A stretch of 64,000 nt of DNA from Pegea sp. RAD2-039 (lineage: Eukaryota > Chordata > Thaliacea > Salpida > Salpidae), in the NCBI GenBank assembly GCA_034620365.1, contig JAQGEQ010000142.1, forward strand, positions 1 through 64,000. Reading direction: 5' to 3'. Each line of letters begins with the position of its first letter. The first letter of the stretch is position 1. The notes under the pieces are model-generated. The model was not told the DNA's origin, searched no databases, and worked only from the letters and a program-made list of their open reading frames with translations. The translations under genes and the position numbers were made by a program. This document shows positions 5,331-61,915 of the stretch, in pieces.

Positions 5331-5389
5331 TTATCATTGTCAGACAAGAATAAATAGGTATTACTTTTACTAAATTTCCCATACATACA

Positions 5390-5960
5390 TTTATAGATCG
5401 GATTTTCACCTTTGAGACCCTCTGCGGTGATGGGTCTAAGGAGATAGATCTTTTACAAATATAACACCCTGTCTCTGAAATTTTAATCGAACAACGAGAC
5501 CGCAATGGTGACCATAAGATCTGTGATGGTTAACGGGGCCTTTATCCTTAGAAAATCTTCATCTTGACGCGACTGGAACCGTTCATGATCCTCTCTTGTT
5601 CTGGTTCGAATTGTTTATTCTTTTTATTGATTTATTTAATTTTTTTGATATTTTTTATTGTTTCCAGCAAAGTTTCTGGGCGAAAAGCGATTGTTGAGTC
5701 TTTAATGGTGATTATTGGAAACTTCGACGTGAACCTGACTTTTATGCTCTCACTGAGATCCCTAAACTTTGGTGACGTCATAAAAGCTTCCTATAGGGGA
5801 TAGATCTTGCACCAATATAACACCGTTTTAGTGAAATTTTCATGGGACAACGCGAGCGCAACGAACATCACAAGAGCCGTGATGCTTCACGAGGCCTTTA
5901 TTCCTAGAAAATCTTCTTTGCAATGCGACTGGAACCCTTCATTATCCTCTTTGCTTAGAT
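5390..5960 (-). repeat. Stray satellite monomers (one partial plus one fragment)
   Basis: Sequence from about 5395 to 5790 and a second fragment from about 5790 to 5960 are diverged copies of the 760-bp unit arrayed at 37768-44670, in the opposite orientation. The junction in the middle ('gacgtcataaaagcttcctataggggatag') skips part of the unit. They lie directly upstream of gene A2, where the missing 5' exons would be expected. Confidence 0.7.
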
Positions 5961-8183: not shown

Positions 8184-8860
8184 TCAACAAGATTATATCG
8201 ACTTGTTTGTAGATATTTGCTTTATTATGTTTTTAAGTTGATTATCGTTAGTTTAAAAAGCTGAAAATGTATTTATTTTCGTTATAGAGTTTTTCTTAAT
8301 CAATTACATCTTAAAAAAAAGATATCAATTTTTGATGCCGACTTAACTCAATCTGATTTAATAATTAAAAATGCGTTTTTATCCGTTTCATTATGTTTCT
8401 TTTTTATGGTTTTGACTTTAGTGAAATGTCGAGACGATTATAAAGGTAAAACCAATCTTGTGTCTTAATGTTTGTCTTTACATATTGAGTCGAAACCCAA
8501 AAATAAAAGTTGTTTTAAAAAGTGTTGAAAAGTTCTTTAAAAAATTTTTATATCTTTAAAAGACTCGGGAAGAAAGCAAGAAGATTAAATTTCCAAAAGC
8601 AGAATTTCTAACTAAATTGTTTATTATTCAGAGCAGTTTACAGTTTAAAATTTTGTTTAATTAATTAATGAAAAAATTGACTTATTTCTAAATAATGAAA
8701 ATTTATTTTTGGCCCATAAAAAGAACAGATAACTTAAATTTTACATAAAAGTTATTGCTACTCTATTTTCGATAAGAAACGACTCTTAAAACTTTTGTTT
8801 AGTTTGAAAAAGTTTAAAACATTTTCAAAAAGTCGTTTAGATTTTAATTAGTTAATGTAA
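8184..8860. repeat. 3' flank of A2, duplicate of 1075-1740
   Basis: Non-coding and highly similar to the flank of A1, differing by scattered substitutions and small indels. The A1 and A2 duplication therefore included the downstream DNA and the LINE tail. Confidence 0.65.
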
Positions 8861-9720
8861 AAACCTTTTATAAATGATTCACACTTCTTCAAGTTCTATA
8901 TACGTCCAATGCTTGAAAACAGTGTCAGTGCATGGATGTTATATCAAGATAGTGAAATAAAAAACAATGAATTTGTTCAGGTTACTCTTACAAAATTGGT
9001 ATACAGGAAACTTAAGACTAATTAACAAACTTATATAGAAGGTCTTAGTTTTTTAGATTTAGATACTTTTGAAAATCAACGGGTTAAATACAGCCTAATA
9101 ATTAATTTTAAGCCTTTCCCTAATTTAGTTGACTTTCAATTTCATACTTTTTCTCCATTAGTCCTCCCCACAAGTTATATTAACGAAGATAACACACATT
9201 ACATCTTGATAAACGTATATAACCTGGTACATTAATCAGAGCAAATTTCCCTTTCATACTGCACAATTATTACTCAGAGCTAGTTGCCATAAGACATTGT
9301 CATGTCAGAATCACTTGTGCTGCTCAAGAAAAAATTGAATTGTTTTAGTGTTTTCCCAACTATAATTTTAAATTTTCATTAATTTTCTCTTTTTGTATAA
9401 TTAAGACTCTTTTAATTATTTACTGTTATGTTTTATGGAAACTCGTGAACTGGCGTGAGTTTCGTACATGTCATTTTGTACTTATATCATGATTGTATAA
9501 AAAATATTATTCTAAATAAAGTTATATTCGTAATAAAAACTGCTACTAATGGTGTTGGTTTCAAGCATCCCTTTTCGTTTATTGTAATGATTAAAAAAAT
9601 AAGTCCGAAGTGTTATTACGCCAATTTAGGTAGCAAGATTTCAACCTTGAATTTTCATTCAAGTTTACTGGTAAAATTTAGTTCTAGATTTTTAGTGTAA
9701 TTAATAATTTTAGAGTTATT
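8860..9720 (+). mobile_element. LINE tail relic, second copy
   Basis: Duplicate of 1745-2600: the same 'RPMLE'-like block, RR-block and terminal KKKLNCF block, with its own extra stops. The open stretch at 9455-9700 is AT-rich 3' sequence of this relic, not a gene, because the matching stretch at 2345-2600 is closed. Confidence 0.55.
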
Positions 9721-9734
9721 TACTGTAAATAACT

Positions 9735-9939: not shown

Positions 9940-10130
9940 TAATATATAAAAGTATTCAAGAAATGATCACAAGCTTTTTCAGATAAATGGTTTATTTATA
10001 TTTTTAAACCGATCATAGTTAGAATTTAGTTTCAGCTGATTGAGAAGAAACAGATAAATGTTAGAACACTGGGAAGCTTTTGATGAAACTTCAAATAGTT
10101 ACATCTTCTTCATCATCTCTTTATCACAAT
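9940..10130 (-). pseudogene. 3' flank of a lost insulin-like gene
   Basis: This stretch matches the DNA just downstream of the stop codon in all five peptide genes: the 'gaagcttttgatgaaact' block, then 'catcatctctttat' from the AATAAA region. Where the stop and last exon should follow (compare 12609 on), the sequence switches to the intergenic module instead. It looks like a sixth copy with its coding exons deleted. Confidence 0.55.
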
Positions 10131-12060
10131 TATTAAAATATTTTTTCGGTAGAAAATTCAGTTTGATTAACAAATTTTCTAATATGTTTTTGCTTCAGTA
10201 AACAACTTCATAATTAGTTAGTTTTCTAGGATTATACCTTTTAGTAGATCTCTTTCATTTTTCTACTAATCAAAGGGCTAAAAAGTCACCAAATAACTAT
10301 TCCTCACCCGATAACTTGTAACATAAAGACTTGAAGATAAATGAGATTATTAATAATTTAGGTCAAATCAACATCAGTATTAATGTGAAGCAAGTTACTT
10401 AGATAAGTTTTTATTTGAAGCTTTATTATTGAAGTTTATTTAAAAAACATAAGATGTTTCTTATAAAAACGTAACTCAAATTTTGTAAAAAATGTTGGTA
10501 ACAATTAAAAGATCAAACTATAACTACATTTTAAGCTTCAAAAAGATATTTAACTACAAATGAAAGAATCTTTAAACTTGATAATCTAGCATTATCAGTC
10601 TGCTTTGCATTCAGCTATACAAAATTGAAACTTTTCTAAACTGTAGTGAGTTAGACTTATCCATTAAACTTTAACTTTCTATATAGAAGATCATTAAAGC
10701 AATAACTTTGCTAAACTATTCTATCAAAAGCTTTTAATCAAAGTTCATCTTTCTATTTAATAGATTATTAAACCAAAGACTGATAAATTACTAAATACTC
10801 TGGTGAGTTAGTTCTTGTTAGTGAGTTCATTTAGCAATAAGTCTTAATTAAGCTTTCAATTTATTCTGAGCCAATTAATTACAATATTGTTATTGAAATC
10901 ATATGAGTATATATAAAATTTTAACCTTTGAAGAACAAACTACTAAAAGCTAATTGAAATTTGAAACAAATTCTAATAAGCATTTAGTAAGCTTAAAACA
11001 AGTCAAAGATATAAAATTGGTTTTCCTAAAGTAATTTTGTAACCTATTTATACGCCACGTGTCTTTGAGTCACAATTTCAACAGCCTTTCTAGTGGGTAA
11101 AAACCAAAAATATGAGTAAAAAAATAATACAAAATTTTCCAAAACCTTTTTCTTAAACACCTTTATTACAAATTTTTTATTTTATATATTTCAACAAATA
11201 TGGATTTTTTAATGATTTCAGTAAACGTTTAATTTGAAAACATCAACATTAAAAATTAAATAAAGTTTCAAGCTTATCAACATTAAACATTTTGCGATTT
11301 TTTATTACACTAAAGATATTCCAAATTAATTTCAAATCTAATATTTTAGTAAAAGTATAAATCTAATACTTCAACAAGAAACGTTTTATTTATGTAATTG
11401 GAGTTTTTAAAGAACATTCTGTTAATCAGCAGTAATATCATTTTCATATTAAATGACCAAGTTATTTAAATTTTATGTTTAAAATTTTCCTTAACTAGTT
11501 TGTCATTAAATTTATTTTATGATTATGATGACAAATATAATTATAACAAAATAGTTTGGAAATCAATTCAGTTTACGAATAGTTTTTACGTTTGTTTTGC
11601 AGCTTTAAATTTTCTAAGATCAAGTTAATATTTTATGAAGCTATCTAAAATCAGTAGCTCCTTTGACAAGCTTCTAAAATTAAATTCAAACAAAACTTAT
11701 ACTTTAATTAGTATTTTGAAAACATAGTGCAAAAATAAGATAATTCCAGCCATAAAAATTTCAGTTTAATTAACAGATCTTCTAATATGTAATTGCCTTA
11801 GTAAAAGAACTGAGAATTGGTTAATTTTCTAGGATTTTATAATTTGGTGGATTTTTTTGTATTTTTCTGGTTTTCAGAAGCTAAAAAGTCACCAAATAAC
11901 TATTCCTCACCTGATAACTTGTGATATAAAGATTTAATGAAGAAAAAATATTTTGTTAATTTTTTATGTGAAATCAACATCAGTATTTATGTGCAGCAAA
12001 TTACTTAGATTTGTTTTATTTCAAGCGTTATTATTGAAGTTTATTTTCATAAACTTTTTT
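10130..12060. repeat. Intergenic M modules of the peptide cluster
   Basis: AT-rich DNA with an internal repeat of about 1.6 kb. The landmark 'accaaataactattcctcac' recurs at about 10288 and 11898 here, and with changes at about 15298, 16964, 26192 and 27798. The block is repeated with each peptide gene. A conserved CACGTG (11056-11061) followed by TGAGTCA (11066-11072) recurs in the second unit. No genes are seen. Confidence 0.6.
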
Positions 12061-12608
12061 TGTGTTTTGGTAAAATGGTAAGTCAAATTTTATCTAAAAT
12101 GTTGGTGACAATTAAAATATAAAACTATAACACTAATTGATACTTTAACAAGTTATTTAACCACTAAGAAGTCTTTAAAAGTTTTTATTCTAAACTTATC
12201 AGTCTACTTTACGTTCAACTATATAAAATCAGAACTTATCTCAACTGAAATAAGTTAGAGTTATTCTTTATATTTCATCTTTCCAGAGAATAGATTTTTA
12301 AACTAATAACTGATAAATTTTTCTATCAAGTTGCAGCTGATCTTTTTCATCAAGCTCAAAATCTTTATCTAATTACTTTTATTACTAACAGATGTCAAAA
12401 TAAATTTTTTTCCAAATACTATATAAAAGTATTCAAGAAATGACCACAAGTTTCTTCAGATAAATAGTTTAAGTAAATTTTTATACCGAATATAGTTAGA
12501 AAATAACTTCAGCTGATTGACAAGAAACAGAGTAATGTTAGAACAGTGAGAAGCTTTTGATGAAACTTCAAATAGTTACATCTTCATCATCATCTCTTTA
12601 TTACTCAT

Positions 12609-13363
12609 TTAGCAAAATAGTGCCATGTAGTCCTTAGTACATGATTCGTTGCAGCATTTGGTTCGAAGACTAGACATACGGGGCCTAAAAAGAAAATATT
12701 CATTAAACTTGAAAAGTAATTTTCGCTTATTTCCTGTAAATAAATTAAATTTGTATAACTGATAAAGCTGTACAAAACTTAGTATTACTAAACCTTAAAT
12801 ATTAATTAAAAACGAAATGTATTTTTAGCTGACAAAAGTTTAATGACAACTTATACAACCCGTTTATCTTTACAATGATAATACTAATCATAGGATATTA
12901 AAACTGAAGAAGTCAACTTACAATTGATGTTTGTAAACTTGGCAATATAAGTCCAAGCTTCCTTCAGGTTGGTTAAAGACTTCAAACATATTCAATGCTA
13001 TGTAACGTTTCACTGAAGTTAAAAAGATTTTTGATAAAAGCTTTTCTACCAACTTTTCTGCCGCTTAAGTTAAGCTCGAAGTATTTCTTTAATTGAAAGA
13101 CGTTTATGAGAAATGATAAAAAACTTACAACTTGTGCAAGCCACTCTAATAAATCTTCTAAAAAAACTGTTCTTCTCGTCGTAGTAGAATTTATACAGTT
13201 TTTGTTGCTTTGTTGGACATACACACTTAAAGACAGGATAGAAATCTGCTCCACACACTGTAAGTGGGAAATCATTTTCGGCGGCACACATTGCTGCGAC
13301 ATCAGCTTGACACTGACACACATAAAGCATAGCTATTAAGAAGATTATTCCAAACTTAAACAT
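12609..13363 (-). CDS. Insulin-like peptide precursor ILP1 (133 aa, 10 Cys after the signal peptide)
   Basis: Exons on the minus strand: 13129-13363, 12922-13012 and 12609-12684 (402 nt), with GT-AG borders in phases 1 and 2. Residues 1-19 (MFKFGIIFLIAMLYVCQCQ) are a signal peptide. Residues 37-49 give VCG...CVC with C-x11-C spacing, as in an insulin B chain. RR at 69-70 is a possible processing site. Residues 119-133 are CCNESCTKDYMALFC, which fits the insulin-family pattern CC-x3-C-x8-C including the S/T/D and hydrophobic positions. Extra cysteines at 26, 47, 76 and 102 suggest two more disulfides. A secreted hormone or growth-factor role is inferred. There is no dibasic site just before the A chain. 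It is nearly identical to ILP2 and ILP3, differing from both at residue 73 (Arg for Ser). Confidence 0.82.
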
Positions 13364-13612
13364 TTTCGTAGTTTGTTAAGAATCTCAATATCTGAGGAGA
13401 AGAGAAAATTGAAAAATTACTTCATCTTAAATACAATGTTTGCATAAAACACAACAAGATAAAAAGCATCACGTTAAAGGCAAATTTTCATATAATATGC
13501 TATTAGCTAAGAGAACGATTTCGTTTTCAAATGAAAGTTATTTAGCTGTGAAGAAAATTACAACAATCTCAGTATGTTAGTAAAACTTCTTATTCAAGTT
13601 TGATTTTGAGTT

Positions 13613-13621
13613 CCTTTTATA
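13613..13621 (-). promoter_or_regulatory. TATA box of ILP1
   Basis: TATAAAAGG on the minus strand, about 250 bases before the ATG. A likely 5'UTR intron ends at a CAG/ATATTGAG acceptor near 13391, so the transcription start just downstream of the TATA box is plausible. The same box is found before ILP2 to ILP5. Confidence 0.5.
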
Positions 13622-13639
13622 TTAAAAAATGTTTGTTTA

Positions 13640-15140
13640 TTTATTTACTTTTAAATAAAAAATAATTTCAGATTTTCAAGAAACGTTTAGTTAGTAAATA
13701 AAAAACAAATAAATAAATATTTTTGTGAATTTGTATATAGAAAAGTATTTTTTTAGTTATAATATTTACAAATTTATAACAATTTACAAAAATCATCCTG
13801 GAAATTTTATCTAGTTTTAAATCTGTTTTCAAAAAGCAGCTTTAAATTCATACAATTTATTTATTAAATCGTATTAAAGTTAATATTTTTTTATAATTTT
13901 ATATCTAATTTATGTGGAATATCTTTTATGAAATTTTAGTTGTTACAATCAACTTTTATTAAATCTTTAAAAAGTTAAATTATTCAGCTATTCTTTGATT
14001 TAGTTAAAGAAGTTTTATTAATAAAAACTAAATAAATATCAAAAGTGATTTTTAGGATATATTTTAATCATTTAAAGAGAAAACTAATGAAGAAAAACTT
14101 TTTGTGATTAAAAAATCAATAATGTAGGCTGATGTATAAGGATTTTTATATAATTAAATTGTTTCTTATATGTAGTTAATTATCTAATCTACTAAGTTTG
14201 TTGATAATTTCTATTTCATACTTTTTTCTTTTATCTTATTTGTTTATAAATTTACTTGTTTTGTTTTTGTTTATATCTTCCTGGAATTTCATTTGTTTAT
14301 TTACTCAACTTTTTTCTTTCTATTTATTCAAATTTATTTGTTTGTTTAAAATATATTCGGAATTAAAACTTATTCACTTTTTATATTTATCACAAAACGA
14401 TACAATTAAATAGAAAAATAAATAATACCAAATACCACAGTTTGAATACTTTAATGAAGAAAAAAACTTACATCAACATATAAAAATAATGCCTATGTAG
14501 CATAATAATTAATCTCACTTTATTTTTCACAATTTTTTTAACTAAAGACTTTTTAAAACCATTTTCTTAAACACCGTTTGTTTGATGATTTTAATAATAA
14601 ATATTTAACCAAATATGACTTTTTCATTATATCATTAAACATTTGATTAATTTGATAACATTAACATTAAAAATTTAATAAAGTCATAAGATTATCCACA
14701 TTAAACAAATTGTGGTCTACTATTACACTAAAGATATTACTAAGTAATTTCAAATCTAATATGTTAGTAAAAGTATAACTCTAAAACTACAACAAAAAAC
14801 CTTTTCTACAAGCAATTTTGGTTTTTCAAGAACATTCTGTTAATCAGCAATGATATCATTTTCATGTTATGTGACCAAGTAATATAGATTTTATGTTTGA
14901 AATTTTCGTTAACTAGTTTTTCATTAATTTCATTTTAGCATAATGATGACAAATCTGATTAAAACAAAAAAATAAGGAAATGAATTCAGTTTATGAACAG
15001 TTTTTATGTTTTTTTGCAGTTTTATTTTTTCTTAGATCAAATTAATATATTCTGAAGGTAGCTCGTATCAGTAGCTTCTTCTACAGGCTCATATAAAAAA
15101 TCAGCCAAAATTTATAATTTAATTAGTATTTTGAAAACAT
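13640..15140. repeat. AT-rich spacer between ILP1 and ILP2
   Basis: The upstream flank of ILP1 runs to about 14500 and matches 29550-30460 upstream of ILP3. From about 14520 a partial M module begins. The Phe/Leu-rich open stretch at 14198-14413 is low-complexity AT sequence and its counterpart near 30110-30320 is closed. No gene is seen. Confidence 0.5.
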
Positions 15141-17150
15141 ACTGCAGAAAAAGAAAAATATTTTATCGGTAGAAAATTAAGATAAATTTACTAATATGTT
15201 TTTGCTTCAGTAAACAACTTGATAATTACTTAGTTTTCTAGAATTATACCTTTTAGTAGATCTTTTTCATTTTTTTACGTATCAGAGGCTACAAACTGAC
15301 CAAATAACTATTGCTGACCCAATAACATGTAACATAAAGACTTAATGAAATAAATGATATTATTAATAATTTATGTCAAATCAACATCAGTATTAATGTG
15401 AAGCAAGTTACTTAGATAAGTTTTTATTTGAAGCTTATTACTGAAGTTTGTTTAAAAAAACATTTGATGTTTCTTATAAAAACGTAACTCAAATTTTGTA
15501 AAAAATGTTGGTAACAATTAAAAGATCAAACTATAACTACATTTTAAGCTTCAAAAAGATATTTAACTACAAATGAAAGAATCTTTAAACTTTATATTCT
15601 AGCATTATCAGTCTGCTTTGCATTTAGCTATAAAAAATTAAAACTTTTCTTAACTGTAGTGAGTTAGACTTATCCATTAAACTTTAACTTTCTATATAGA
15701 AGATCATTAAACCAATAACTTTGCTAAACTATTCTATCAAAAGCTTTTAATCAAACTTCATCTTTCTATTTAATTGGTTATTAAACCAAAGACTGATAAA
15801 TGACTAAATACTCTTGTGAGTTAGTTCTTGTTAGTGAGTTCATTTAGCAATAAGCCCTAATTAAGTTTTCAATTTATTCTGAGCCAATTAATTACAATAT
15901 TGTTATTGAAATCATATGAGTATATATAAAATTTTAACCTTTGAAGAACAAACTAATAAAAGCTAATTGTAGTTTGAAACAAATTCTAATAAGCAGTAAG
16001 TAAGCTTAGAACTAGTCAAAGATATAAAGTTGGTTTTCCTAAAATAAATTTATAACCTATTTATACGCCACGTGTCTTTGAGTCACAATTTCAACAACCT
16101 TTCTAGTGGGTAAAAACCAAAAACATGAGTAAAAAAATATTCTAAAATTTTCCAAAACCATTTTGATAAACACCTTTTTTTCAAAATTTTAATTTCTATG
16201 TTTCAACAAATATGACTTTTTAAAGATTTCAATAATAGTTTAATTAATTTGATAACATCAACATTAAAAATTAAATAAAGTTTCAAGCTTATCAGCATCA
16301 AACAAATTTCGATTTATTATTACACTAAAGATATTCTGAAATAATATCAAATCTAATATCCTAATAAAAGTATTAGTTTAAAACTACAACAACAAACCTT
16401 TTTATAAGTAATTGGAGTTTTTCAAGAACGTTCTGTTAATCAGCAGTAATATCATTTTCATGTTAAATCACCAAGTTATTTAAATTTTATGTTTAAAATT
16501 TTCCTTAACCAGTTTGTCATTAAATTTATTTTATGATTATGATGACAAATCTAATTATAACAAAATAGTTAGGAAATAAATTCAGTCTATGAAAAGTTTT
16601 TATGTTTTTCTGCATCTTTAATTTTTCTTAAATTAATTTTTTGAAACGATTAGTTTCTATGTTTGTTTTGCAGCTTTATTTTTTCTTAGATCAAGTTAAT
16701 ATTCTCTGAAATTTTCTTGAATAATTAGCTCCTTTGACAGGCTTATAAAAATAAATTCAACCAAAACTTATACTTTAATTAGTATGTTGAAAACATAGTG
16801 TAAAAAAGGCAAATAATTCCAGTCATAAAAATTTCAGTTTAATTAACAAATTTTCTAATATGTTTTTGCTTCAGTAAGGGACCTGACAATTAATTAGTTT
16901 CCTAGGATTGTATAATTTGGTGGATTTTTTCTATTTTTCTGCTTTTCAGAGGTTAAAAAGTCACCAAATAACTATTCCTCACCTGATAACTTGTGATATA
17001 AAGATTTAAGGAAGACAAATTATTTTGTTAATTTTTTATGTGAAATCAACATCAGTATTTATGTGCAGCAAATTGCTTAGATTAGTTTTTATTTCAAGCG
17101 TTATTATTAAAGTTTATTTTCATCAACTTTTTTTGTGTTTTGGTAAAATG
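15140..17150. repeat. M modules in front of ILP2's 3' end
   Basis: Close copy of 10130-12060, including the CACGTG plus TGAGTCA pair near 16070. Together with ILP2 it forms a unit offset by 5075 bases from the ILP1 unit. Confidence 0.55.
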
Positions 17151-17681
17151 GTAAGTCAAATTTTATTAAAAATATTGGTTACAATTAAAAGATAAAACTA
17201 TAACACTAATTGATATTTCAAGACGAAATTTAACCACTAAGAAGTCTTTACAAGATTTTATTCTAAACTTATCTGTCTGCTTTACGTTCAACTAAATAAA
17301 ATCAGAACTTATCTCAACTGAAATAAGTTAGAGTTATTCTTTATACTTCATCTTTCTAGATAATAGATTTTTAAACTAATAACTGATAAATCATACAACA
17401 AAGTTGCAGCTGATTCTTTTTATCAAAGTCAAAATCTTTATCTAATTACTTTTATTACTAACAGATATCAAAATATATTTGTTTTCAAATGCTATTCAAA
17501 AGTATTCACGAAATGATCACAAGTTTCTTCAGATAAATAGTTTAGGTAAATTTTTATACCGAATATATTAAGAAAATAACTTCAGCTGATTGACAAGAAA
17601 TAGAGAAATGTTAGAATAGTGAGAAGCTTTTGATGAAACTTCAAATAGTTACATCTTCATCATCATCTCTTTATTACTCAT

Positions 17682-18438
17682 TTAGCAAAATAGTGCCATG
17701 TAGTCCTTAGTACATGATTCGTTGCAGCATTTGGTTCGAAGACTAGACATACGGGGCCTAAAAAAAGGATTATTCATCAAACTCGAAAAGTAATTTTCGC
17801 TTATTTCTTGTAAATAAATTAAATTTGTATAACTAATAAAGTTGTACAAAACTTAGTATTACTAAAACCTTAAATATTAATTAAAAACGAAATGTATTTT
17901 TAGCTTACAAAACTTCAATGACAACTTATACAACCCGTTTATCTTGACAATGAAAATACTAATCATAGGATATTAAAACTGAAGAAGTCAACTTACAATT
18001 GATGTTTGTAAACTTGGCAATATAAGTCCAAGCTTCCTTCAGGTTGGTTAAAGACTTCAAACATATTCAAGGCTATGTAACGTTTCACTGAAGTTAAAAA
18101 GATTTTTGATAAAAACTTTTCTACCAACTTTTCTGCCGCTTAAGTTAAGCTCGAAGTATTTCTTTAATTGAAAGACGTTTATGAGAAATGATAAAAAACT
18201 TACAACTTGTGCAAGCCACACTAATAAATCTTCTAAAAAAACTGTTCTTCTCGTCGTAGTAGAATTTATACAGTTTTTGTTGCTTTGTTGGACATACACA
18301 CTTAAAGACAGGATAGAAATCTGCTCCACACACTGTAAGTGGGAAATCATTTTCGGCGGCACACATTGCTGCGACATCAGCTTGACACTGACACACATAA
18401 AGCATAGCTATTAAGAAGATTATTCCAAACTTAAACAT
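17682..18438 (-). CDS. Insulin-like peptide precursor ILP2 (133 aa)
   Basis: Exons 18204-18438, 17997-18087 and 17682-17757, with the same lengths and phases as ILP1. The protein is the same as ILP1 except Ser at residue 73. All ten post-signal cysteines, RR 69-70 and the A-chain-like CCNESCTKDYMALFC are kept. Introns are also almost the same as in ILP1, so the duplication (or conversion) is recent. AATAAA lies a few bases past the stop, as in all members. Confidence 0.82.
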
Positions 18439-18687
18439 TTTCGTAGTTTGTTAAGAATCTCAATATCTGAGGAGAAGAGAAAATTGAAAAATTACTTCAT
18501 CTTAAATACAATGTTTGCATAAAAAACAACAAGATAAAAAGCATCACGTTAAAGGCAAATTTTCATATAATATGCTATTAGCTAAGAGAACGATTTCGTT
18601 TTCAAATGAAAGTTCTTTAGCTTTGAAGAAAATTACAACAATCTCAGTATGTTGTTAAAACTTCTTATTCAAGTTTGATTTTGAGTT

Positions 18688-18696
18688 CGTTTTATA
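18688..18696 (-). promoter_or_regulatory. TATA box of ILP2
   Basis: TATAAAACG on the minus strand, at the same place as in ILP1 and with one base different from the ILP1 and ILP3 box. Confidence 0.45.
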
Positions 18697-19493
18697 TTAA
18701 AAAATGTTTGTTTATTTAATTACTTTTAAATAAAAAATGATTTCAGATTTTCACGAAACGTTTAGTTAGTTAATAAAAAACAAATAAATAAATATTTTTG
18801 TATATTTGTATATAGAAAAGTATTTTTATAGTTATAATATTTACAAATTTATAACAATTTAAACAAATCATCCATGAAATTTTATGTAGTTTTATATCTG
18901 TTGTCAAAAAGCAACTTAAATTCACACAATTTTTTCACACGTTTTGTGTTATTTGGTAAAATGTTAAGTCAAATTTAATCAAAAATGTTGGTGACAATTA
19001 TAAGATAAAACTATAACACTATTTGAAACTTCAAAAGATATTGAACCACTAAGAAGTATTTAAAAGTTTTTTTTATAAACATATCAGTCTGCTTTACGTT
19101 CAACTTTATAAGATCAAATCTTCTCTCTACTGAAATATGTTAGAGTTATTCTATATATTTTAACTTTCCTTATAATATATTATTAAACTAATAATTGATA
19201 AATTATTCTATTATGTTGCAGCTAATCTTATTCATTGAAGTCAAAATCTTTATTTAATTACTTTTATTAGTAACAGATTTCAAAATATCATTTCTTTAAA
19301 ATACTATATAAAAGTATTCACAAAATGATCACAATCTTTTTCAGATAACTAGTTTAATTATATTTTTAAACCAAGTATAGCTATAAATTAGTTTCAGCTG
19401 ATTGAGAAGAAACAGAGAAATGTTAGAACACTGAGAGGCTTTTGATGAAATTTCAGATAGTTACATCCTCTTCATCATCTCTGCATTGCTCAT

Positions 19494-20284
19494 TTAGCAA
19501 TATAGTTGAATTAATCTTTTATTAAAGGAATGATAACAGCATCTTTTAGCAAGATCCGAAAAAGGAATTCTATGCAGTAAACGGCTAAATTGTTAAAAAA
19601 TCTATGAATTATTTTAATTTACTAAGTTAATATATAATCAATATCTTTAAAACAAGTTTTAGTTTATTTTTCAAAATTGTTAGTGATGTAATAGTAAATA
19701 GTTTCGGTGAAACACAAACATATAACTTAATTATAAAATTATTTAGATAAAAAAAAATTGAAAAATATATTAATGAAAACAAATTTACTGGCGATTTCTA
19801 ATATAGGTGCAAAACAAATTTAAAGTTCCTGGAAGGTAATTGGATCTTCGTTCAAATGTTTCTGCTAATTTTTTAGAATTGCCTGAAATTAATATATTTA
19901 TATTCTTTACATTTCTATAATATATTTCTGAACGAAAATATTTGAAACTTTTGCCTTATAAATTTAGTAAAACTTATATTTAGTCAAATATTAGTTATCA
20001 GAATAAAAGTTATTATTTAAGATTAGAATTTGTGTTTTACTTCTACATGCTACACGAAGAAATCTTCTCAGTCCACTGTTTGCAGGATTAGTCAGAATTC
20101 TTTTCAAGTTATTTTGAACAAATGGACAAACACACTGAAAAACTTTTGCAAAATCATCTGAACAGACCTTACAAAGAGGGTATGGATTTCTGTTAGCACA
20201 AATTGATTTCCAGTCAGCATTTGCTTCACATTGATAGAGATAAAGCGTTACCACTACAATGAATGTTCCAAACTTTATAAACCT
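19494..20284 (-). pseudogene. Diverged insulin-like gene ILP5, start codon missing, cysteines rearranged
   Basis: Three exon-like blocks, 20041-20284, 19789-19882 and 19494-19569, keep the family's splice phases (1 and 2) and the exact 76-nt last exon, and the joined frame is open for 137 codons. The position of the conserved ATG reads AGG and no upstream in-frame ATG is seen. B-like part: VCSDDFAKVFQCVC keeps C-x11-C. A-like part: KRCCYHSFNKRLIQLYC, where the third A-chain cysteine is Phe. An extra cysteine appears in LCKVC, so the total stays at ten. KR directly precedes CC, a better processing site than in its sisters. The rest of the frame being open argues against an old pseudogene. An unseen upstream exon or a non-ATG start is possible. 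Confidence 0.6.
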
Positions 20285-20510
20285 TTTCGTATTTTAACAA
20301 CAAATTAATTTTCTTGAAATAAACAACACTTTTTAAAATAAAGTAAAAACAAAACATAAATTAAAATATATAGTATAATGATGAAATGAAGTATTATATA
20401 CTATAATTTAAGAAAAGAAAATGATTTCTTTTAAAATTAAATATCCTTCGTTGTGTAACAATTTACAACAACTATAGAAGTTAATAATGGTACAACTTTC
20501 AACTTGAAGT

Positions 20511-20519
20511 CTTTTTATA
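20511..20519 (-). promoter_or_regulatory. TATA box of ILP5
   Basis: TATAAAAAG followed by 'acttcaagtt' on the minus strand. The surrounding 200 bases are a clear inverted match to the ILP4 promoter (23220-23480), so the promoter has persisted although the start codon has not. Confidence 0.45.
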
Positions 20520-21370
20520 GTACAACATTTTGTTTGTTTGTTTGAAAATGTTTATAGTAAAACATGACCAATTTCCTCATTATTCGAAATATTTATGTAG
20601 ATACGTAATTGTCTAACACAACGCTTTACGTAACACATTAAAAAAATATAAACAATATCTTTTCCATTTAAAATTGTCTTATACCAACACAAATGTTTAA
20701 AAATATTGTTGACATGTGATTTGCGTTTGGAAAAAGCTTATTTTTAATTGAATTTACATTAAAACTTTAAACTTTTGACAAAGTTATAATCGTCTAACTT
20801 GTTGGTATCTAAATCTAAACTCATTCAAAAACTGTTCAAACCATATAATGCAAGGCCTTTAAATTGTTACTGAAGATATTCTGCAAATTCTAAGCTAACT
20901 TGAATATATTTAAGAGTCTGATTGCCAATCACAAACAAAGTAATTTAGGCTACAAGTTTATGAAAAACAAATAATAAAAGTGATTTTAAATGCGCATCTT
21001 TAAGAGTTATAAAAACGAAGAAATATAAAACATATGAATTGTTCCATTGCTTTAAAGATTTGGTTAGGGTGCAATTCATAGTATTGCAGATGATATCATT
21101 CAGTAAGAATATGGAACAAGTATAAAATAGAAGTTATGAAAAGTTCAATAAGAAGTTTAAGTAGTATGTGAGCTGTTCCTAAAAAAGTCTATTTTTTAAT
21201 TGGTAGGAATTTCAATTTTTACTAATATTTTTCAATGAATTTCACGATCAGATTTGATTTAAAGTTCTCATAAAAAACTTGAAGGAATTGATATATTTGT
21301 ATCGCTTGGTAATGCAACGTCTATTCGTAAGAAAATTTTATTGTTTTATGTTTTGGAAGAATATCCTGTC
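20520..21370. other. AT-rich spacer, upstream of ILP5
   Basis: The first 180 bases match the ILP4 upstream region in inverted orientation. Beyond that I see no gene and no repeat that I can place. Confidence 0.4.
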
Positions 21371-21640
21371 GTTGTTTCCATGTTCTCGGTCTGTTTGATG
21401 CCAAAGTGAATGTATTTCGCTACTTTGTTATGGGGATAAAAGTATTCTTTTCTGCGATTAACCAACAATCTGATGTGATATGACCGATGGTTTCAGGTTT
21501 AGTTTTACAAACTCTTCATTTGTCTACGTTAGTAACTTCTGATAATTTTTGCTTGCAACAATGTAGTAAGTAGTGAATGACTTTGTGCTGCTACTAGTAG
21601 TCTTTTTGGTTCAACCTTAAGAAATACCGATCCACCAGTA
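21370..21640 (-). mobile_element. Older LINE relic, C-terminal part of a reverse transcriptase
   Basis: On the minus strand, fragments in shifting frames read LKVEPKRLLVAAQSHSL (near 21565-21620), KPETIGHITSDCWLIAEK (near 21445-21500) and EYFYPHNKVAKYIHFGI (near 21390-21445). That order (glu-rich AAQ block, C..C...ET..HI...C, Y..RH..VA..IH) is one I know from the end of many invertebrate non-LTR reverse transcriptases annotated as type-1 retrotransposable elements. Weak similarity may continue on both sides. It is clearly dead. The clade is not determined. Confidence 0.5.
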
Positions 21641-23370
21641 TGTCTGGTTTAAAAGCACATTTACCTTCTTTGTTCTTTTGAGTAATTGGTATTGAACTGA
21701 TTTTAACAATTGATTACAACTCGATAAAGATACTTTTTTAAAAGATTTTTTCTTGCTTAGAGAAGTTACTGATAATTTTTTCATCATCTGTTGGTGGCTT
21801 TAATTCTTTTATAAGCTACTCAACTTGTTTGGTGATAATATAATTTTTTGATAAAATTTTTCTTCTCTTTTTCCAATCACAAAAGTCATTCTAACAACTT
21901 AAATAAATATATGGAAAGTGAGGATGAAGTCTTGATCGTTTTTAGCAGATATTCTCTGTCATCCAACATATAGGAAAAGGATCATTTGTTTCAGTCCTAT
22001 ATCCGCCAGGTATTTTGTCCAACAGCTTAGACAGGACATTAGTGAGTTGGGGAAAAGTGGCGTAGGATTAAATCACCTCTAAAGATTCATAATTAATTGA
22101 TCAGTCTTCTATAACTCATACAACTGTTTGTGATTTTTAGGAATATGTGATTATCTTAACTTAAATTAACTTAAAATTATCTGTAGATAGAAACACACTG
22201 ATTTCATATATTACTACAAGTCTCAAGATGAGGAATTCAACTACCATCGACATTAAAAGGGACTCAGAATGAATTCCCGGAGAACCACACTAATGAATTG
22301 ACTAGTAGTAGAAAAAGACTCTTGTTGTTTGGTTCTACCCAATAAGTAATTCTCAATTTAATTTTTTTTAAATCTTGAGTGAAAAAATAACCAGTTAAGA
22401 AATTAGTGAAGAAATATTTTCTTTCATAAACCATTCTTGATGTCACATATAAGATTGCACTTTATCAAATGATTGTGATTTGTCATATGATTGTAAACTA
22501 TTCAGTTCTACAGGAAACTAAAGTTCTTGAAACTTGTTTGTAGTTAAATGTGTTTGGGACTCTTTTTTAAAACTATGAGTCATATTTAGTTTTTGTAGAT
22601 AGTTTAAAAATTTTGTAGCCTAAATTAATTGAGTCGAGATTGGCAACCAGACTTTTGAATCTATAAGAAAAAGTTGTATATGAAGCGACGGATTTTAGTT
22701 TTGAAAATTGATTCAATAGAAATCTAGCTGTTCGGGCAGTCATTAATATCTGTCTTAATTATAAAGCTCAGGTCTTTCAACAGGGTTTATTATTTAATTT
22801 ATTATAACTGTTATCATTACTATTATTACAATTATTAATAATATTTATTACTAGTAAGTTTCTTATATTAGTGATCTTATTAAATTAATGATAAGAAATC
22901 AGTTTCAAGTTTGCTGCTTAATTTCAAAGTTATCTTTTATATTTATAAACTACTTTGAAAAATTTACAATCCTATACTAATCTTTAGAAATATAGCTTAG
23001 CTTAGAGTTTAAAGAATATCTTTAGTAGAATTTGGAAGTTCTTACAATATATGTTTTGAAATTTTTTTAAAAGAGTTTAATTTAAATACCAGCAAGCTAC
23101 ACGATTAGAATTATATTGAACGTTTGAAACTTTAAGTGGTATAATAAATTTAAAAATAGTTTTTTTCAAATGCTAATTACATGTCAACAATATTCTAAAC
23201 ATTTTTATTGTTATAAGAAAGTTTCAAATAAAGTATATTGTTTATATTAATTTACATATACGTGAATCATTGTGTTAGACAATTACGTAATTACATAAAT
23301 ATTTAAAATAGTAATACAATTAGTTATGTTTTATTATAAACATTTACAAACAAATAAACAAATTGTAGTA
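21640..23370. other. AT-rich spacer with no recognised gene
   Basis: The left end may be more of the LINE relic. The short minus frame at 22264-22446 has no sister copy, no signal and no domain. From about 23220 the ILP4 promoter region begins. Confidence 0.35.
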
Positions 23371-23371
23371 C

Positions 23372-23378
23372 TATAAAG
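23372..23378 (+). promoter_or_regulatory. TATA box of ILP4
   Basis: TATAAAG followed by 'agacttcaag', matching ILP5 in inverted orientation. A 5'UTR intron is likely: a polypyrimidine run and CAG acceptor end at 23649, giving a leader that begins ATATTGAG and runs 27 bases to the ATG. Confidence 0.5.
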
Positions 23379-23676
23379 AGACTTCAAGTTCAAAGTTTTA
23401 ACATTGCTAACTTTTATAATTGTTGTAAATTGTTACACAACGAAAGATATTTGATTTTAAAAGAAATCATTTTTTTTCTTTAATTATATTTTAATAGAGT
23501 TTATTTTACCATTATATTATATATCTTAATTTATGTTTTACCTTGTTACAATCTGATATATTTTTAAAAGTGTTGGTTTTTATCTTGCTGCTTTTTATAC
23601 AAACAGTTTACTTAAGTTGAATCAATTTTTTAATTTTCTTTTTTATCAGATATTGAGCTATCAACAAACTACGAAA

Positions 23677-24440
23677 ATGTTCAAGTTTGGAATAATCTTC
23701 TTAATAGCTATGCTATATGTGTGTCAGTGTCAAGGTGAAAGCTCAGCAATGTGTGCGGCCAGCTACAAATCTCCGCTTCAAGTCTGTGGAGACGATTTCG
23801 ATCAGGTCTTTAAATGTGTTTGTCCAGCAAACCATCTCAATTTATATAACTTCTACTACGCTGAGAAGAACAGTTTGTTCAGAAGATTGATTCCTGTGGC
23901 TTGCAAAGATTGTAAGTATTTATTATTTCTGTTAAAGATCTTTCAATTAAACAAATATTTCGATCTAAATTGATTGGCAGTAAAGTTGGTATAAAGATTT
24001 AAAAAATCTTTAATCAAAGATGTTTTCAATTTCAGTGGATCGTTTCCTAGCCTTGTATATGTTTGATGTGTTCGAACAACCTAAAGGAAGCTTCGACTTA
24101 TATTGCCAGATGTACGAACATCACTTGTAAGTTTACTTCAACAGTTTTAATATCTTATGATTAGTAGTTTTATGGTAAACATAATCAGGTTGTATAAATT
24201 GTCATTAAAATTTTGTCAACTAAATATACATTTCTGTTTTAATTGATATTTAAACTTTTAGTAATAATGATTAGTTACAACTTTAAGAGTTATACAAAAT
24301 CAATTTAATTACAAGAAACAAACAAAAATAAATTGTCTAGTTTAAAGAATATCTCTTCTTGTAGCCCTCGTATAGCACGTCTCCAAAACAAGTGCTGCAG
24401 AGAATCATGTACTGCAGACTACATGGCACAACATTGCTAA
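23677..24440 (+). CDS. Insulin-like peptide precursor ILP4 (133 aa)
   Basis: Exons 23677-23911, 24036-24126 and 24365-24440 join to 133 residues, the only plus-strand member. The signal peptide is the same as in ILP1. B-like VCGDDFDQVFKCVC keeps C-x11-C. RR lies at 69-70. A-like CCRESCTADYMAQHC fits the insulin-family signature. All ten cysteines are conserved, while many other residues differ from ILP1-3 (for example AASYKSPLQ against AAENDFPLT). Purifying selection on the cysteine frame is therefore likely. The first intron is phase 1 in the connecting segment, as in animal insulin genes. AATAAA lies at 24447-24452. It sits divergent from ILP5, with a related promoter. Confidence 0.82.
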
Positions 24441-24452
24441 ATGAGTAATAAA

Positions 24453-26040
24453 GAGATGATGAAGAAGATGTAATTATTGGAAGATTCATCAAAAGCATCT
24501 CACTGTTCTAACATTTCTCTGTTTCTTCTCAATCAGTTAAAACTAATTTCTAACTATAATCGGTATACAAATATAAATAAACTATTTATTTGAAAAAGCT
24601 GGTGATCATTTCGTGAACACTTTTAAATAGTACTATATTTTGACATCTTTTAGTATTACAAGTAATTAGATAAAGATTTTTACTTCAATGAATAAAATCA
24701 GCTGCAACTTGATAGATTAACTTATCAGTAGTTGGTTTAAAATTCTATTATTTCGAAAATTGAAGTTTGATGAATAACTCTAACTTATTTCAGTTTAGAG
24801 AATTTTAATTTTGTAAAGTTGAATGTACAGCAGACTGATAAACTTAGATTATATGCTTTAAAAGATTTTATCTTTTGTAATTAAATATCTTTTTGAAGTT
24901 TCAAATGTTGTTAATGTTTAATGTTTAAAAATTCACAAAAATGTTTTAGAAAATATTTTTTTTTTATAAATCTTATTATAGGTTCATTGGATTTTATCAA
25001 ACAGTAATCATCAATCTACTTAAACTAAAACTGTTGGCTTTTTATTGTTGCCAAGTAAGAATTATTCAGCACGTTTAAGACAGATTCAAATGCCTTAGCA
25101 AAATGGAAATAGATGTACCGAGTAGTATTCCTTTAGTTCATTTAGAAAAGTGACATTTTTCTTAGGAACCATTGCCAGATCTTCCTGTCTTAAACCAACG
25201 GACACTATATGCATGAAATGCTTTTAATAAAAAACAAATATGAATTGTCTAATGGCAAACAAAGATTTCAAGTTAAAACAACATTTATTAAAATTTTTGA
25301 AAAAAGACGTTAGATTGATTTAAATAGTATTTGAACAGATTTGATTTTAAATGTATTAGCTTACATCAAAATATAACTAATTATACTTATTTATATAATT
25401 AATCACAATTCTTTTTCACAATTTCTCTTAACTCAAGACTTTTCAAAACTTTTTTCTTAAACACCTTTTGTTTGGTAATTTTAATATTAAATATACCGCT
25501 AAATACGGCTTTTTTGATGTTTCAGTAAAAGTTTGAATAATTTGATAAAATTAACATTAGAAAATAAATAAGGTTTCAATCCTATCACCATTAAGCAATT
25601 TGCGATTTATTATTATACTATAGATGATCTGAAGTAATTTCAAAACTAATATCTTATTATAAGTATAACTCTAAAACTACAACAAGAATCGTTTTTTTTT
25701 ATTAGTAATTGGAGTTTTTAAAGAAAATTCTGTTTTTCAGCAGTAATATCATTTTCATGTTAAGTGACCAAGTAACTTAAATTTTTTGGTTGAAATTTTC
25801 GTCATCTAGTTTGTCATTAATTTCATTTTAGGAATAGGCAACAAATTTAATTATAACAAAATAATTAGAAAATAATTTCATTTTATGAACAGTTTATATG
25901 TTTGTTTTGCATCTTTTTTTTAGATCAAGTTAATATTTTCTGAAGCTAGCTAGTATCAGTAGCTTCGTTAACAGGCTCATAAAAAAATCATCAAAAATTT
26001 ATACTGTAATTAGTATTTTGAAAACTTAGTACAAAAAAAG
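24453..26040. repeat. 3' flank of ILP4 and partial M module
   Basis: 24453-24900 matches the 3' flanks of ILP1-3 in inverted orientation. 24960-25400 has no match that I can place. 25420-26040 is a diverged M-module part facing the ILP3 unit. No genes are seen. Confidence 0.45.
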
Positions 26041-28000
26041 TAAATTATTTCAGCTCTAAAATAATCAGTTTGATTAACTAATTTTCTAATATGTGTTTGC
26101 TTCAATAAAAGACTTGACAATTAGTTTGTTTTCAAGGAATATATCTTGTACTAGATTTCTTTTGTTTTTCTGCTTATCAGAGGCTAAAATGTCACCAAAT
26201 AAAACTATTCCTCACACGATAACTTCTGACATAAAGACTTAATGATGATAAATGAAATTATTAATAGACTATTTCAAATCAACATCAGTAATTATGTGAG
26301 GCTAGTTACTTAAATTTGTTTTTATTTGAAGCGTTATTATTGATGTTTGTTTAAAAAACTTTTTATTTTGTTTATAAGAACGTATCTCAAATTTTTTTAA
26401 ATGTTGGTGACAATTAAAAGATCAAACTGTAACTACATTTGAAGCTTTAAAAAGATATTTAACTTAAAAAAAATTTTTTTAATGTTTTATTCTAACTTTA
26501 TCAGTTTGTTTTGCTTTCAGCTTTACAAAGTTAAAACTTTTCTAAACTGTAGTAACTTAGATTTATCTATTAAACTTTAACTTTCTATATAAAAGATCAT
26601 TAATCAAATTATTTTGCTATGGTATTTTAAAAAGTACTATTAATCAAACTTCGTCTTTCTATACAATAAGTTGTTAAATCACAGACTAAGAAAATACTAA
26701 AAACTCTTGTGAGTAATTTCTTAGTTCTTGTTAGTGAGTGCATTTAGCAATACAACCTAATTAAGTTTTCAATTTATTCTGAGCCAATTATTTTCAATAT
26801 TATTTATTGAAGTTACATAAATATAATTTTAACCTTTGAAAAACAAACTACTAAAAGCTAACTGTAATTTGAAACAAATTCTATTAAGCAGTAAGTATTT
26901 TTAAACAAAATCAAAGATATATAGTTGGTTTTCCTAAAGTAATTTTGTAATCTATTCATACGCCACGTGGGTTTGCTTTTCAGTTTCAACAGCCCTCCAA
27001 ATGGGTAAAAACCAAAATTATGAGTAAAAAAATAATCCAAAATTTTCCAAAACCTTTTTCTTAAACAACTTTTTTACAAATTTTTTATTTTATATATTTC
27101 AACAAATATGGATTTTTTAATGATTTCAGTAAACGTTTAATTTGAAAACATCAACATTAAAAATTAAATAAAGTTTCAAGCTTATCAGCATTAAACATTT
27201 TGCGATTTTTTATTACACTAAAGATATTCCAGATTAATTTCAAATCTAATATTTTAGTAAAAGTATAAATCTAATACTTCAACAAGAAACGTTTTATTTA
27301 TGTAATTGGAGTTTTTAAAGAACATTCTGTTAATCAGCAGTAATATCATTTTCATATTAAATGACCAAGTTATTTAAATTTTATGTTTAAAATTTTCCTT
27401 AACTAGTTTGTCATTAAATTTATTTTATGATTATGATGACAAATCTAATTATAACAAAATAGTTTGGAAATAAATTCAGTTTACGAATAGTTTTTACATT
27501 TGTTTTGCAGCTTTAATTTTTCTAAGATCAAGTTAATATTTTATGAACCTATCTAAAATCAGTACCTCCTTTGACAAGCTTCTAAAATTAAATTCAAACA
27601 AAACTTATACTTTAATTAGTATTTTGAAAACATAGTGCAAAAAAAAGATAATTCCAGCCATAAAAATTTCAGTTTAATTAACAGATTTTCTAATATGCAA
27701 TTGTTTCAGTAAAAGAACTGAGAATTGATCAATTTTCTAGGATTATATAATTTGGTGGATTTTTTTTATTGTTCTGGTTTTCAGAAGCTAAAAAGTCACC
27801 AAATAACTATTCCTCACCTGATAACTTGTGATATAAAGATTTAATGAGGAAAAAATATTTTGTTAATTTTTTATGTGAAATCAACATCAGTATTTATGTG
27901 CAGCAAACTACTTAGATTTGTTTTTATTTCAAGCGTTATTATTGAAGTTTATTTTCATAAACTTTTTTTGTGTTTTGGTAAAATGGTAAGTCAAATTTTA
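26040..28000. repeat. M modules of the ILP3 unit
   Basis: Copy of 10130-12060. The left half is more diverged: CACGTG is kept near 26960 but the TGAGTCA beside it is lost. The right half (27050-28000) is very close to the ILP1 copy. The minus frame at 26858-27040 is chance. Confidence 0.55.
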
Positions 28001-28515
28001 TCTAAAATGTTGGTGACAATTAAAATATAAAACTATAACACTAATTGATACTTTAACAAGTTATTTAACCACTAAGAAGTCTTTAAAAGTTTTCATTCTA
28101 AACTTATCAGTCTACTTTACGTTCAACTATATAAAACAGAACTTATCTCAACTGAGATAAGTTAGAGTTATTCTTTATACTTCATCTTTCTAGATAATAG
28201 ATTTTTAAACTAATAACTGATAAATTTTTCTATCAAGTTGCAGCTGATCTTATTGGTCAAGCTCAAAATCTTTATCTAATTACTTTTATTACTAACAGAT
28301 GTCAAAATATATATTTTTTCAAATACCATATAGAAGTATTCACGAAATGATCACAAGTTTCTTCAGATAAATAGTTTAATTAAATTTTTATACCGAATAT
28401 AGTTAGAAAATAACTTCAGCCGATTGACAAGAAATAGAGAAATGTTAGAATAGTGAGAAGCTTTTGATGAAACTTCAAATAGTTACATCTTCATCATCAT
28501 CTCTTTATTACTCAT

Positions 28516-29272
28516 TTAGCAAAATAGTGCCATGTAGTCCTTAGTACATGATTCGTTGCAGCATTTGGTTCGAAGACTAGACATACGGGGCCTAAAAAAA
28601 GAATTATTCATCAAACTCGAAAAGTAATTTTCGCTTATTTCTTGTAAATAAATTAAATTTGTATAACTGATAAAGTTGTACAAAACTTAGTATTACGAAA
28701 ACCTTAAAAATTAATTAAAAACGAAATGTATTTCTACCTGACAAAAGTTCAATGACAACTTATACAACCCGTTTATCTTTACAATGAAAATACTAATCAT
28801 AGGATATTAAAACTGAAGAAGTCAACTTACAATTGATGTTTGTAAACTTGGCAATATAAGTCCAAGCTTCCTTCAGGTTGGTTAAAGACTTCAAACATAT
28901 TCAAGGCTACGTAACGTTTCACTGAAGTTAAAAAGATTTTTGATAAAAGCTTTTCTACCAACTTTTCTGCCACTTAAATTAAGCTCGAAGTATTTCTTTA
29001 ATTGAAAGACGCTTATGAGAAATGATAAAAAACTTACAACTTGTGCAAGCCACACTAATAAATCTTCTAAAAAAACTGTTCTTCTCGTCGTAGTAGAATT
29101 TATAAAGTTTTTGTTGCTTTGTTGGACATACACACTTAAAGACAGGATAGAAATCTGCTCCACACACTGTAAGTGGGAAATCATTTTCGGCGGCACACAT
29201 TGCTGCGACATCAGCTTGACACTGACACACATAAAGCATAGCTATTAAGAAGATTATTCCAAACTTAAACAT
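28516..29272 (-). CDS. Insulin-like peptide precursor ILP3 (133 aa)
   Basis: Exons 29038-29272, 28831-28921 and 28516-28591, with the same lengths and phases as ILP1 and ILP2. The protein equals ILP2 except Val for Ile at residue 83. It keeps the signal peptide, C-x11-C, RR 69-70 and CCNESCTKDYMALFC. Identity extends through the introns and about 300 bases of promoter, pointing to very recent duplication or gene conversion. A collapsed or mis-joined assembly should be kept in mind. Confidence 0.82.
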
Positions 29273-29521
29273 TTTCGTAGTTTGTTAAGAATCTCAATAT
29301 CTGAGGAGAAGAGAAAATTGAAAAATTACTTCATCTTAAATACAATGTTTGCATAAAAAACAACAAGATAAAAAGCATCACGTTAAAGGAAAATTTTCAT
29401 ATAATATGCTATTAGCTAAGAGAACGATTTCGTTTTCAAATGAAAGTTCTTTAGCTTTGAAGAAAATTACAACAATCTCAGTATGTTGTTAAAACTTCTT
29501 ATTCAAGTTTGATTTTGAGTT

Positions 29522-29530
29522 CCTTTTATA
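29522..29530 (-). promoter_or_regulatory. TATA box of ILP3
   Basis: TATAAAAGG on the minus strand, identical to the ILP1 box and at the same distance from the ATG. Confidence 0.5.
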
Positions 29531-29549
29531 TTAAAAAATGTTTGTTTAT

Positions 29550-30850
29550 TTATTTACTTTTAAATGAAAAATGATTTCAGATTTTTACGAAACTTTTAGT
29601 TAGTATATAAAAAATAAATAAATAATTATTTTTGTATTGTTGTATATAAAAAAATTTATTTATAATTATATTATTTACAAATTCAAATCAATTTACAAAA
29701 ATCTTCCTGGAAATTTTATCTAGTTTTAAATCTGTTGTCATAAAGCAACTTAATTTCCTACAATTCAATCTTTTAATTGCATTTAGGTTTATATTTTTTT
29801 AGAATTTTATTTCTAATTTCTGTGAAATATCATTAATGAAATTTTAGTTTTTTCAATAAACCTTTATTCAATCTTTTAAAAGTTAAATTTAATTAGCTAT
29901 CCTTTGATTTTGTTAAAGTAGTTTTATTAATGAAAAGTAAATAAATGTCAAAAGTGATTTTTACGATGTATTTTATTCATTTAATGAGAAAACTAATGAA
30001 GAAAAATTATTTGTGATTAAATAATCGATGGTGTAAGCAGATGAAACTAAGAGTTTAGTAAAAATTAAATATCTCTTATATGTAGTTAATTACCTATTCT
30101 TTTAAGTTTGTTCATAATATTTATATCATAATTTTTCTGTTTATCTTATTTGTTTATATATTTATTTATTTTTATATATATTTTCCTTGGATCTCATTTG
30201 TTTATCTATTCAAGTTTTTTCTTTCTATTTATTCTACTTTTTTTATTTATTTAAAAAATAGTTGGAAATAAAACTTATTCACTTTTTATATTTATCACGG
30301 AACGATACAAATAAAAAGAAAAATAAATAATAGCAAATACCATAGTTTGAGGCCTGTGTTGCAGAAAAAAACTTTTCTATAAAAAAATGATTTTAAATAT
30401 ATGTATTTACATAAACATATAACAAAATATGCTTATGTAGCATAATAATTAATCAAACTTTCATTTTTTACAAATTTTTTTAAACTCTAGACTTATCAAA
30501 ATCTTTTTTTAAACTACTTTTGTTTGACAATTTTAATATCAAGTGTTTCACCAAATATGGCCTTCATTAATTATTTCAAAAAAGTTTGATTAATTTGATA
30601 ACATAAACATTAAAAATTATATAAAATTTCGGTCTTATCAGCATTAAACAATTTGTTATTTATTATTACACTAACTATGTTCTTAAGTAGTTTCAATTCT
30701 AATATCTTAATAAAAGTAAAACTCTAAAACTACAACAACAAACGTTTTTTTATAAGTAATTAGAGTTTTTAAGAACAATCAGTTAATCAGCAGTGATATC
30801 ATTTTGATGTTATTTTTGATGCATGAAGTATAACAGTAGATAATTTGAAA
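29550..30850. repeat. Upstream flank of ILP3 and M-module fragment
   Basis: 29550-30460 matches 13640-14520. 30460-30800 is an M-module fragment that stops where the D/LINE block begins. No gene is seen. Confidence 0.5.
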
Positions 30851-61680: not shown

Positions 61681-61915
61681 TCACAATTATTGTTTTTAAA
61701 CTGTAATTCCTTTTGTCTCAAACATATTAGTAATACTTTTTTCAAATAATATACTGTTATACTTCATTGAAATTTCTAAACTATTAAGTGTTACCTCTAT
61801 CTCTCTGTATACAACTCACATATATTAATTTTGAATTGATAACTTCTATTACATACAATAGTATGGTTAAAAATGAATGATTGTTAGTAAGAGGTGCTCT
61901 TTAAATGTCACTGTT

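Follow-up and report, generated by a model that had tools for sequence, protein, structure and literature searches.

The first 64,000 bases of contig C79 (JAQGEQ010000142.1) of the salp Pegea sp. RAD2-039, referred to here as the window and taken from an assembly of 105.7 Mb in 387 contigs, contain a cluster of small three-exon genes whose spliced products share a plan of ten cysteines and end in an insulin-type A-chain motif. It is probable, although not proven, that these ten-cysteine genes are kin to the insulin superfamily. We consider it likely that they represent a lineage-specific, relaxin-type branch of that superfamily, amplified in an array, in which five disulfides would be formed and the connecting domain would be retained. 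The original prediction, made from the letters of the window, had placed five insulin-like peptide genes between positions 9940 and 29530. Four of the five are intact, three of type A on the minus strand and one of type B on the plus strand. The fifth is a decayed copy of a further type, type C, that has lost its start codon and has a phenylalanine in place of an A-chain cysteine. Because that copy is decayed, the predicted set is better described as four genes plus one broken copy. The predicted span also needs to be shortened at its left end, since positions 9940-12600 are flanking DNA that consists largely of repeats and the first gene ends at 12609; the genes themselves do lie from that position onward.

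The region from about 10.1 to 30.8 kb of the window is made up largely of duplicated blocks, as seen by self-comparison. The gene-bearing blocks match one another at about 74-91% and occur in both orientations, and some of the stretches between them are single-copy in the window. Each of the four intact genes has coding exons of 235, 91 and 76 nt, and both introns have GT-AG boundaries, so the predicted 76-nt A-chain exon is present in the splice models. When the exons are joined, the precursors are 133 residues long and end, as had been proposed, in a CC-x3-C-x8-C segment, which reads CCNESCTKDYMALFC in three copies and CCRESCTADYMAQHC in one. Any two of the three type A proteins of the window are identical except for one or two residues. 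The expected phase-1 intron in the connecting segment corresponds to intron 1; the second intron, which separates the connecting segment from the A chain, is in phase 2 in all four genes. An AATAAA hexamer is found 6 nt past the stop codon of each intact gene, and the 3′ untranslated region may therefore be very short. The 5′UTR intron that had also been predicted is one possible reading of a pyrimidine-rich CAG located 28 nt (type A) or 27 nt (type B) upstream of the ATG, which could be a splice acceptor used either in cis or in trans.

The family extends well beyond the window. With type A exon 1 as the query, 25 matches were found in the genome, which we sorted into six of type A, one that is A-like and broken, eight of type B, eight of type C, one of type D and one of type E. 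Two of the 25 contain an internal stop, and the 23 matches without a stop include the broken type C copy of the window. All three exons were recovered for every type A and type B copy (6/6 and 8/8, or 14/14 in all, leaving aside the broken A-like copy on contig C278). Full spliced models cover eight of the 25 exon-1 matches, five in the window and three elsewhere. Alignment A1 was built from one sequence per type (n = 5), without near-identical copies, the decayed copy in the window or the broken A-like one on C278; in this alignment the identity to type A is 66% for type B, 35% for type C, and 26% for both type D and type E. Three relatives of exon 1 were also found on other public contigs, akin by eye to types A/B, C and E, and all three keep the five exon-1 cysteines. 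A scan of viral contigs with alignment A1 gave no relatives.

Ten cysteines are invariant in the one modelled member of each of the five types, at positions 26, 37, 47, 49, 76, 102, 119, 120, 124 and 133 in the numbering of types A and B. The leader of types A and B has two further cysteines, at 16 and 18. The prediction that C26, C47, C76 and C102 would be fixed in all members holds even for the decayed type C copy, but this copy does not have the full ten: it is the third A-chain cysteine that has become phenylalanine, and an extra cysteine is present at position 38. Elsewhere in the genome one modelled type C copy is intact, with an ATG and the ten cysteines; of the 7 other type C places, 6 have the A-chain exon, four cysteines included.

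The arrangement of these cysteines follows that of an insulin precursor. The CC-x3-C-x8-C segment lies at the extreme C-terminus in 5/5 types, with the stop codon directly after the last cysteine in each. In the window the motif was observed four times against 0.09 expected from shuffles, and these four occurrences are not independent because one gene type accounts for three of them. N-terminal to the A chain, the B-like C-x11-C spacing (C37-C49) is present in all five types behind a signal-like hydrophobic leader, which was judged by eye; both elements had been predicted. All five types also fit the insulin-family A-chain signature PROSITE PS00262, and all five have a phase-1 intron followed by a phase-2 intron, both of GT-AG type.

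To these features can be added the results of profile and structure searches. Single-sequence searches against PDB covered types A, D and E; the top match was a relaxin A chain for type A (E 0.16), for type D (E 0.058) and for the profile of the family (E 0.024). In Pfam, where the cut-offs are 23 bits for Insulin (PF00049) and 21 bits for Ins_beta, the highest-ranking family was Insulin for types A, C and D and Ins_beta for types B and E, in every case below the cut-off. The alignment to Insulin takes in nearly the whole profile for types A and B, and Ins_beta was reported for two of the five types (B at E 0.12 and E at E 0.008). Nothing relevant was found in NCBIfam. When types A and D were shuffled with their cysteines fixed (five shuffles each, n = 10), none of the ten matched Insulin or Ins_beta, and none of the three that were searched against PDB gave an insulin or relaxin chain.

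The same genome has a separate, classical insulin-like gene (C1:2086068) that scores 29.6 bits against Pfam Insulin, above the cut-off. Its A chain has the spacing CC-x3-C-x9-C, one residue longer than usual, and its one modelled intron is in phase 2. A second and weaker Insulin match, at C15:451606, covers 23 positions at 19.1 bits, below the cut-off.

If the ten-cysteine genes do encode peptides of the insulin superfamily, their leader would take the precursor into the secretory pathway, where C119-C124, C120-C37 and C133-C49 are expected to form the three insulin bonds. The remaining cysteines, C26, C47, C76 and C102, may form two more bonds, by which the connecting domain would be tethered to the core. 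The connecting domain is probably kept, because its cysteines are fixed and there is no basic cleavage site ahead of the A chain that is common to all types, and the product would then be a single-chain or one-cut hormone. Such a hormone would signal extracellularly, through either a relaxin-type leucine-rich repeat-containing G-protein-coupled receptor (LGR) or an insulin receptor tyrosine kinase, with the LGR favoured because of the relaxin-like traits of the family. A variant of this scheme is a two-chain hormone, in which a convertase would cut at R69-R70 (type A numbering) and the connecting segment would be either held by disulfides or removed. All five types have this basic pair, and type D has an additional RR shortly before its A chain; yet one of the relatives on other contigs (P0002, the one akin to type C) reads RG in place of the pair, and inspection of alignment A1 by eye revealed no dibasic site that all types have in common ahead of the A chain. 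We regard the two-chain form as possible but rather doubtful, with odds that overlap those of the main scheme, of which it is a variant.

Several results weigh against insulin kinship. The proposed check with Pfam Insulin did report the family for four of the five types, but at 14.9 (A), 9.8 (B), 8.7 (C) and 16.0 bits (D), all below 23, and no match was reported for type E, for which no PDB chain was returned either at E values up to 10. The Insulin match of type D (E 0.025) starts at residue 71 and so misses the proposed B chain; the same sequence also matches two unrelated families, Mlo at E 0.079 and T4_UVSX_C at E 0.15. Among the shuffled sequences, 3/10 matched some unrelated Pfam family, one of them at E 0.00085, and 2/3 matched unrelated PDB chains at E 0.57-0.81. 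The weak E-values should therefore not be over-read, and are supportive only when taken together. In the B-like segment the similarity to the insulin superfamily is weak, and the scores are concentrated in the A chain; hhalign aligned 20 A-chain columns only, with a probability of 33.9% and an E value of 0.00043 for that pair. The structure model of exon 1 alone has a mean predicted local distance difference test score (pLDDT) of 58.8, which is low confidence, and lacks an unbroken helix from C37 to C49. Six residues after C37, type A has a proline, which would be unusual inside an insulin B helix; every type also has an extra cysteine two positions before the second B-like cysteine. Between types A and B, the exons (identity 0.76-0.81) are no better conserved than the introns (0.78-0.81), and the ratio of nonsynonymous to synonymous substitution rates (dN/dS) is 0.46-0.55, or 0.51-0.63 without the leader, so that the constraint between these two types is modest. 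The leader protein is the same in both types (dN 0), and by this comparison it is the mature part that evolves fast. In summary, the predicted insulin-family identity is supported in part by the motif, the introns and the relaxin A-chain match, and it is weakened by scores below the cut-offs and by the weak B-chain similarity.

These points could also be explained by a different lineage-specific family of cysteine-rich secreted proteins (peptides of defence, reproduction or mating, for instance) that has converged at its C-terminus on the spacing of an insulin A chain. Convergence of this kind would fit the sub-threshold Pfam scores, the matches of type D to unrelated families at similar E values, the confinement of the profile alignment to the A chain, the low-confidence exon-1 model with its missing B helix, and the pattern of an identical leader protein with a fast-evolving mature part; it would also fit the cysteines of the connecting segment, which are as invariant as the supposed B-chain ones. 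It does not readily account for the agreement among the B-C-A order, both cysteine spacings, PS00262, the phase-1 intron and the top-ranking relaxin A chain in PDB, nor for the failure of cysteine-preserving shuffles to match insulin or relaxin in either Pfam or PDB. For these reasons we consider convergence unlikely.

Bases 26241-30000 of contig C43 match window positions 8768-5017 at 96.9%, beside an array that C43 itself carries, and C43 therefore probably represents either the second haplotype of the window locus or a duplicate of it, with a different order of copies. Over C43:1-30000 compared with window 5017-30812, the cluster copies differ in both order and number. Contigs C334 (whole), C335 (10,000 of 12,717 bases) and C218 (10,000 of 10,089 bases) consist of array sequence over most of the bases read, so the true copy number may differ from that counted. 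An array whose copies are for the most part non-functional and have spread passively by segmental duplication would fit the broken type C copy of the window, the two exon-1 matches with stops, the similar divergence of exons and introns between A and B, and the presence of array sequence in small contigs and at a contig end, but it is highly improbable given that 23/25 exon-1 matches are stop-free (the broken type C copy being one of these), that five divergent types all retain the ten cysteines and the two splice phases, and that 3/3 relatives on other contigs retain the exon-1 cysteines.

The usual definition of an insulin-type hormone includes three disulfides together with a connecting peptide that is either short or disposable. 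The relaxin-type branch proposed here may go further and constitute a new class of hormone: instead of being discarded, the connecting domain would be held on the core by two additional disulfides as a third, structured module, and at least five types would have arisen through array amplification. We put this forward tentatively, as the balance still tips somewhat the other way. If true, the conservation of ten cysteines through strong divergence, with two of them in the connecting peptide, would show how the insulin fold can gain a third covalent module. The repeated array offers a natural series for how hormone genes multiply and decay.

The coordinates of the genes and of the blocks that carry them are collected in Table 1.

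Table 1. Positions in the window of the ten-cysteine genes, their exons and the duplicated blocks around them.
Feature	Position	Strand	Remarks
Duplicated blocks carrying genes, outermost ends	10134..30812		Self-comparison and match to other contigs
Type A gene 1	13363-12609	-	Intact, three coding exons
Type A gene 1, exon 1	13129..13363	-	Putative leader, B-like domain with C26, C37, C47 and C49, and the beginning of the connecting domain (C76)
Type A gene 1, exon 2	12922..13012	-	91 nt; carries C102 of the connecting domain
Type A gene 1, exon 3	12609..12684	-	76 nt including stop; A-chain CCNESCTKDYMALFC
Type A gene 2	18438-17682	-	Exon 1 18204..18438; exon 2 17997..18087; exon 3 17682..17757
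Type C copy, decayed	19494..20284	-	Exon remains 20284-20041, 19882-19789, 19584-19494
Type B gene	23677-24440	+	Exon 1 23677..23911; exon 2 24036..24126; exon 3 24365..24440
Type B gene, exon 3	24365..24440	+	A-chain CCRESCTADYMAQHC
Type A gene 3	29272-28516	-	Exon 1 29038..29272; exon 2 28831..28921; exon 3 28516..28591

Outside the cluster, the window contains other repeated sequences. A tandem satellite with a unit of about 760 bp occupies positions 37896-44668 in about nine copies, and its GC content is near 0.42 compared with 0.22-0.30 in most of the window; a diverged piece of the same satellite matches positions 5373-5794. Positions 1-2621 and 7109-9731 form a direct duplication with 94% identity, which is perhaps a mobile element, and more diverged inverted relatives are located near 51150-53256. 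An open frame of 114 codons recurs at 429-770, 7536-7877 and 52082-52423. Another direct duplication, of about 2.1 kb and also with 94% identity, joins 49696-51762 to 61905-64000. An open frame of 259-267 codons on the plus strand at 36146-36949 has no Pfam match. No tRNA was found in the window by ARAGORN, and no Rfam family reached its gathering score there. Elsewhere in the assembly, TTAGGG arrays are present on contigs C125, C139 and C342. Together with the lack of any Chitin_bind_4 or Col_cuticle_N match, in searches run without a positive control, these arrays argue against an arthropod or a nematode. The rotifer spliced leader, with the sequence given in PMC3795323, had no match at 0 or at up to 3 mismatches, which gives no support for a rotifer, although the assembly could lack the leader genes. 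No COX1 match was obtained in this genome.

The relaxin and dilp7 peptides are among the closest known systems. A chain that ends on the last A-chain cysteine is called characteristic of the relaxin/INSL class in PMC4772807. According to PMC8286064, the C domain holds a phase-1 intron in all ambulacrarian insulin genes studied, and dilp7 and the multinsulin genes have an extra phase-2 intron. The window family likewise ends on its last cysteine and has phase-1 and phase-2 introns, a comparison made by phase and not by residue position, and its best PDB match is a relaxin A chain. It differs from relaxin and dilp7 in having four extra cysteines, two of which are in the connecting domain, and in sharing no cleavage pair before the A chain. 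The B-chain motif of vertebrate relaxins, RxxxRxxI/V, is absent by eye from the B-like segments of alignment A1.

The echinoderm multinsulins and octinsulins, as described in PMC8286064, resemble the family in being multicopy, in being clustered in some genomes and in having added cysteines in some cases, and the multinsulins share the phase-2 intron. In contrast to the ten cysteines and three coding exons found here, these genes are described with at most eight cysteines and typical KR cleavage sites, and the multinsulins with typically four coding exons (PMC8286064); across the five types there are three coding exons, to which an untranslated one may be added, and no KR pair common before the A chain. 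The locust aIGF is described in PMC8220825 as having ten cysteines and five predicted bridges, and insect aIGFs in PMC7357564 as having a C-terminal extension, in many cases with an arginine-rich region that contains an additional bridge. Compared by description, the window family is like the locust aIGF in its ten cysteines and unlike insect aIGFs in that nothing follows the A chain; a C-terminal D/E extension of the type seen in insulin-like growth factors is absent in 5/5 types, where the stop directly follows the last cysteine. The nematode beta-type insulin-related peptides (Ins_beta) are matched by the A-chain segments of types B and E, at the A-chain end only and below the cut-off.

No insulin-like family with the same ten-cysteine arrangement was found in the open-licence literature, among the matches listed. 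Multicopy insulins that are clustered in some genomes, among them eight-cysteine multinsulins (PMC8286064), and ten-cysteine locust aIGFs (PMC8220825) are already published. The window family brings together a high copy number, ten cysteines, cysteines within the connecting domain, and a chain that ends without a C-terminal extension.

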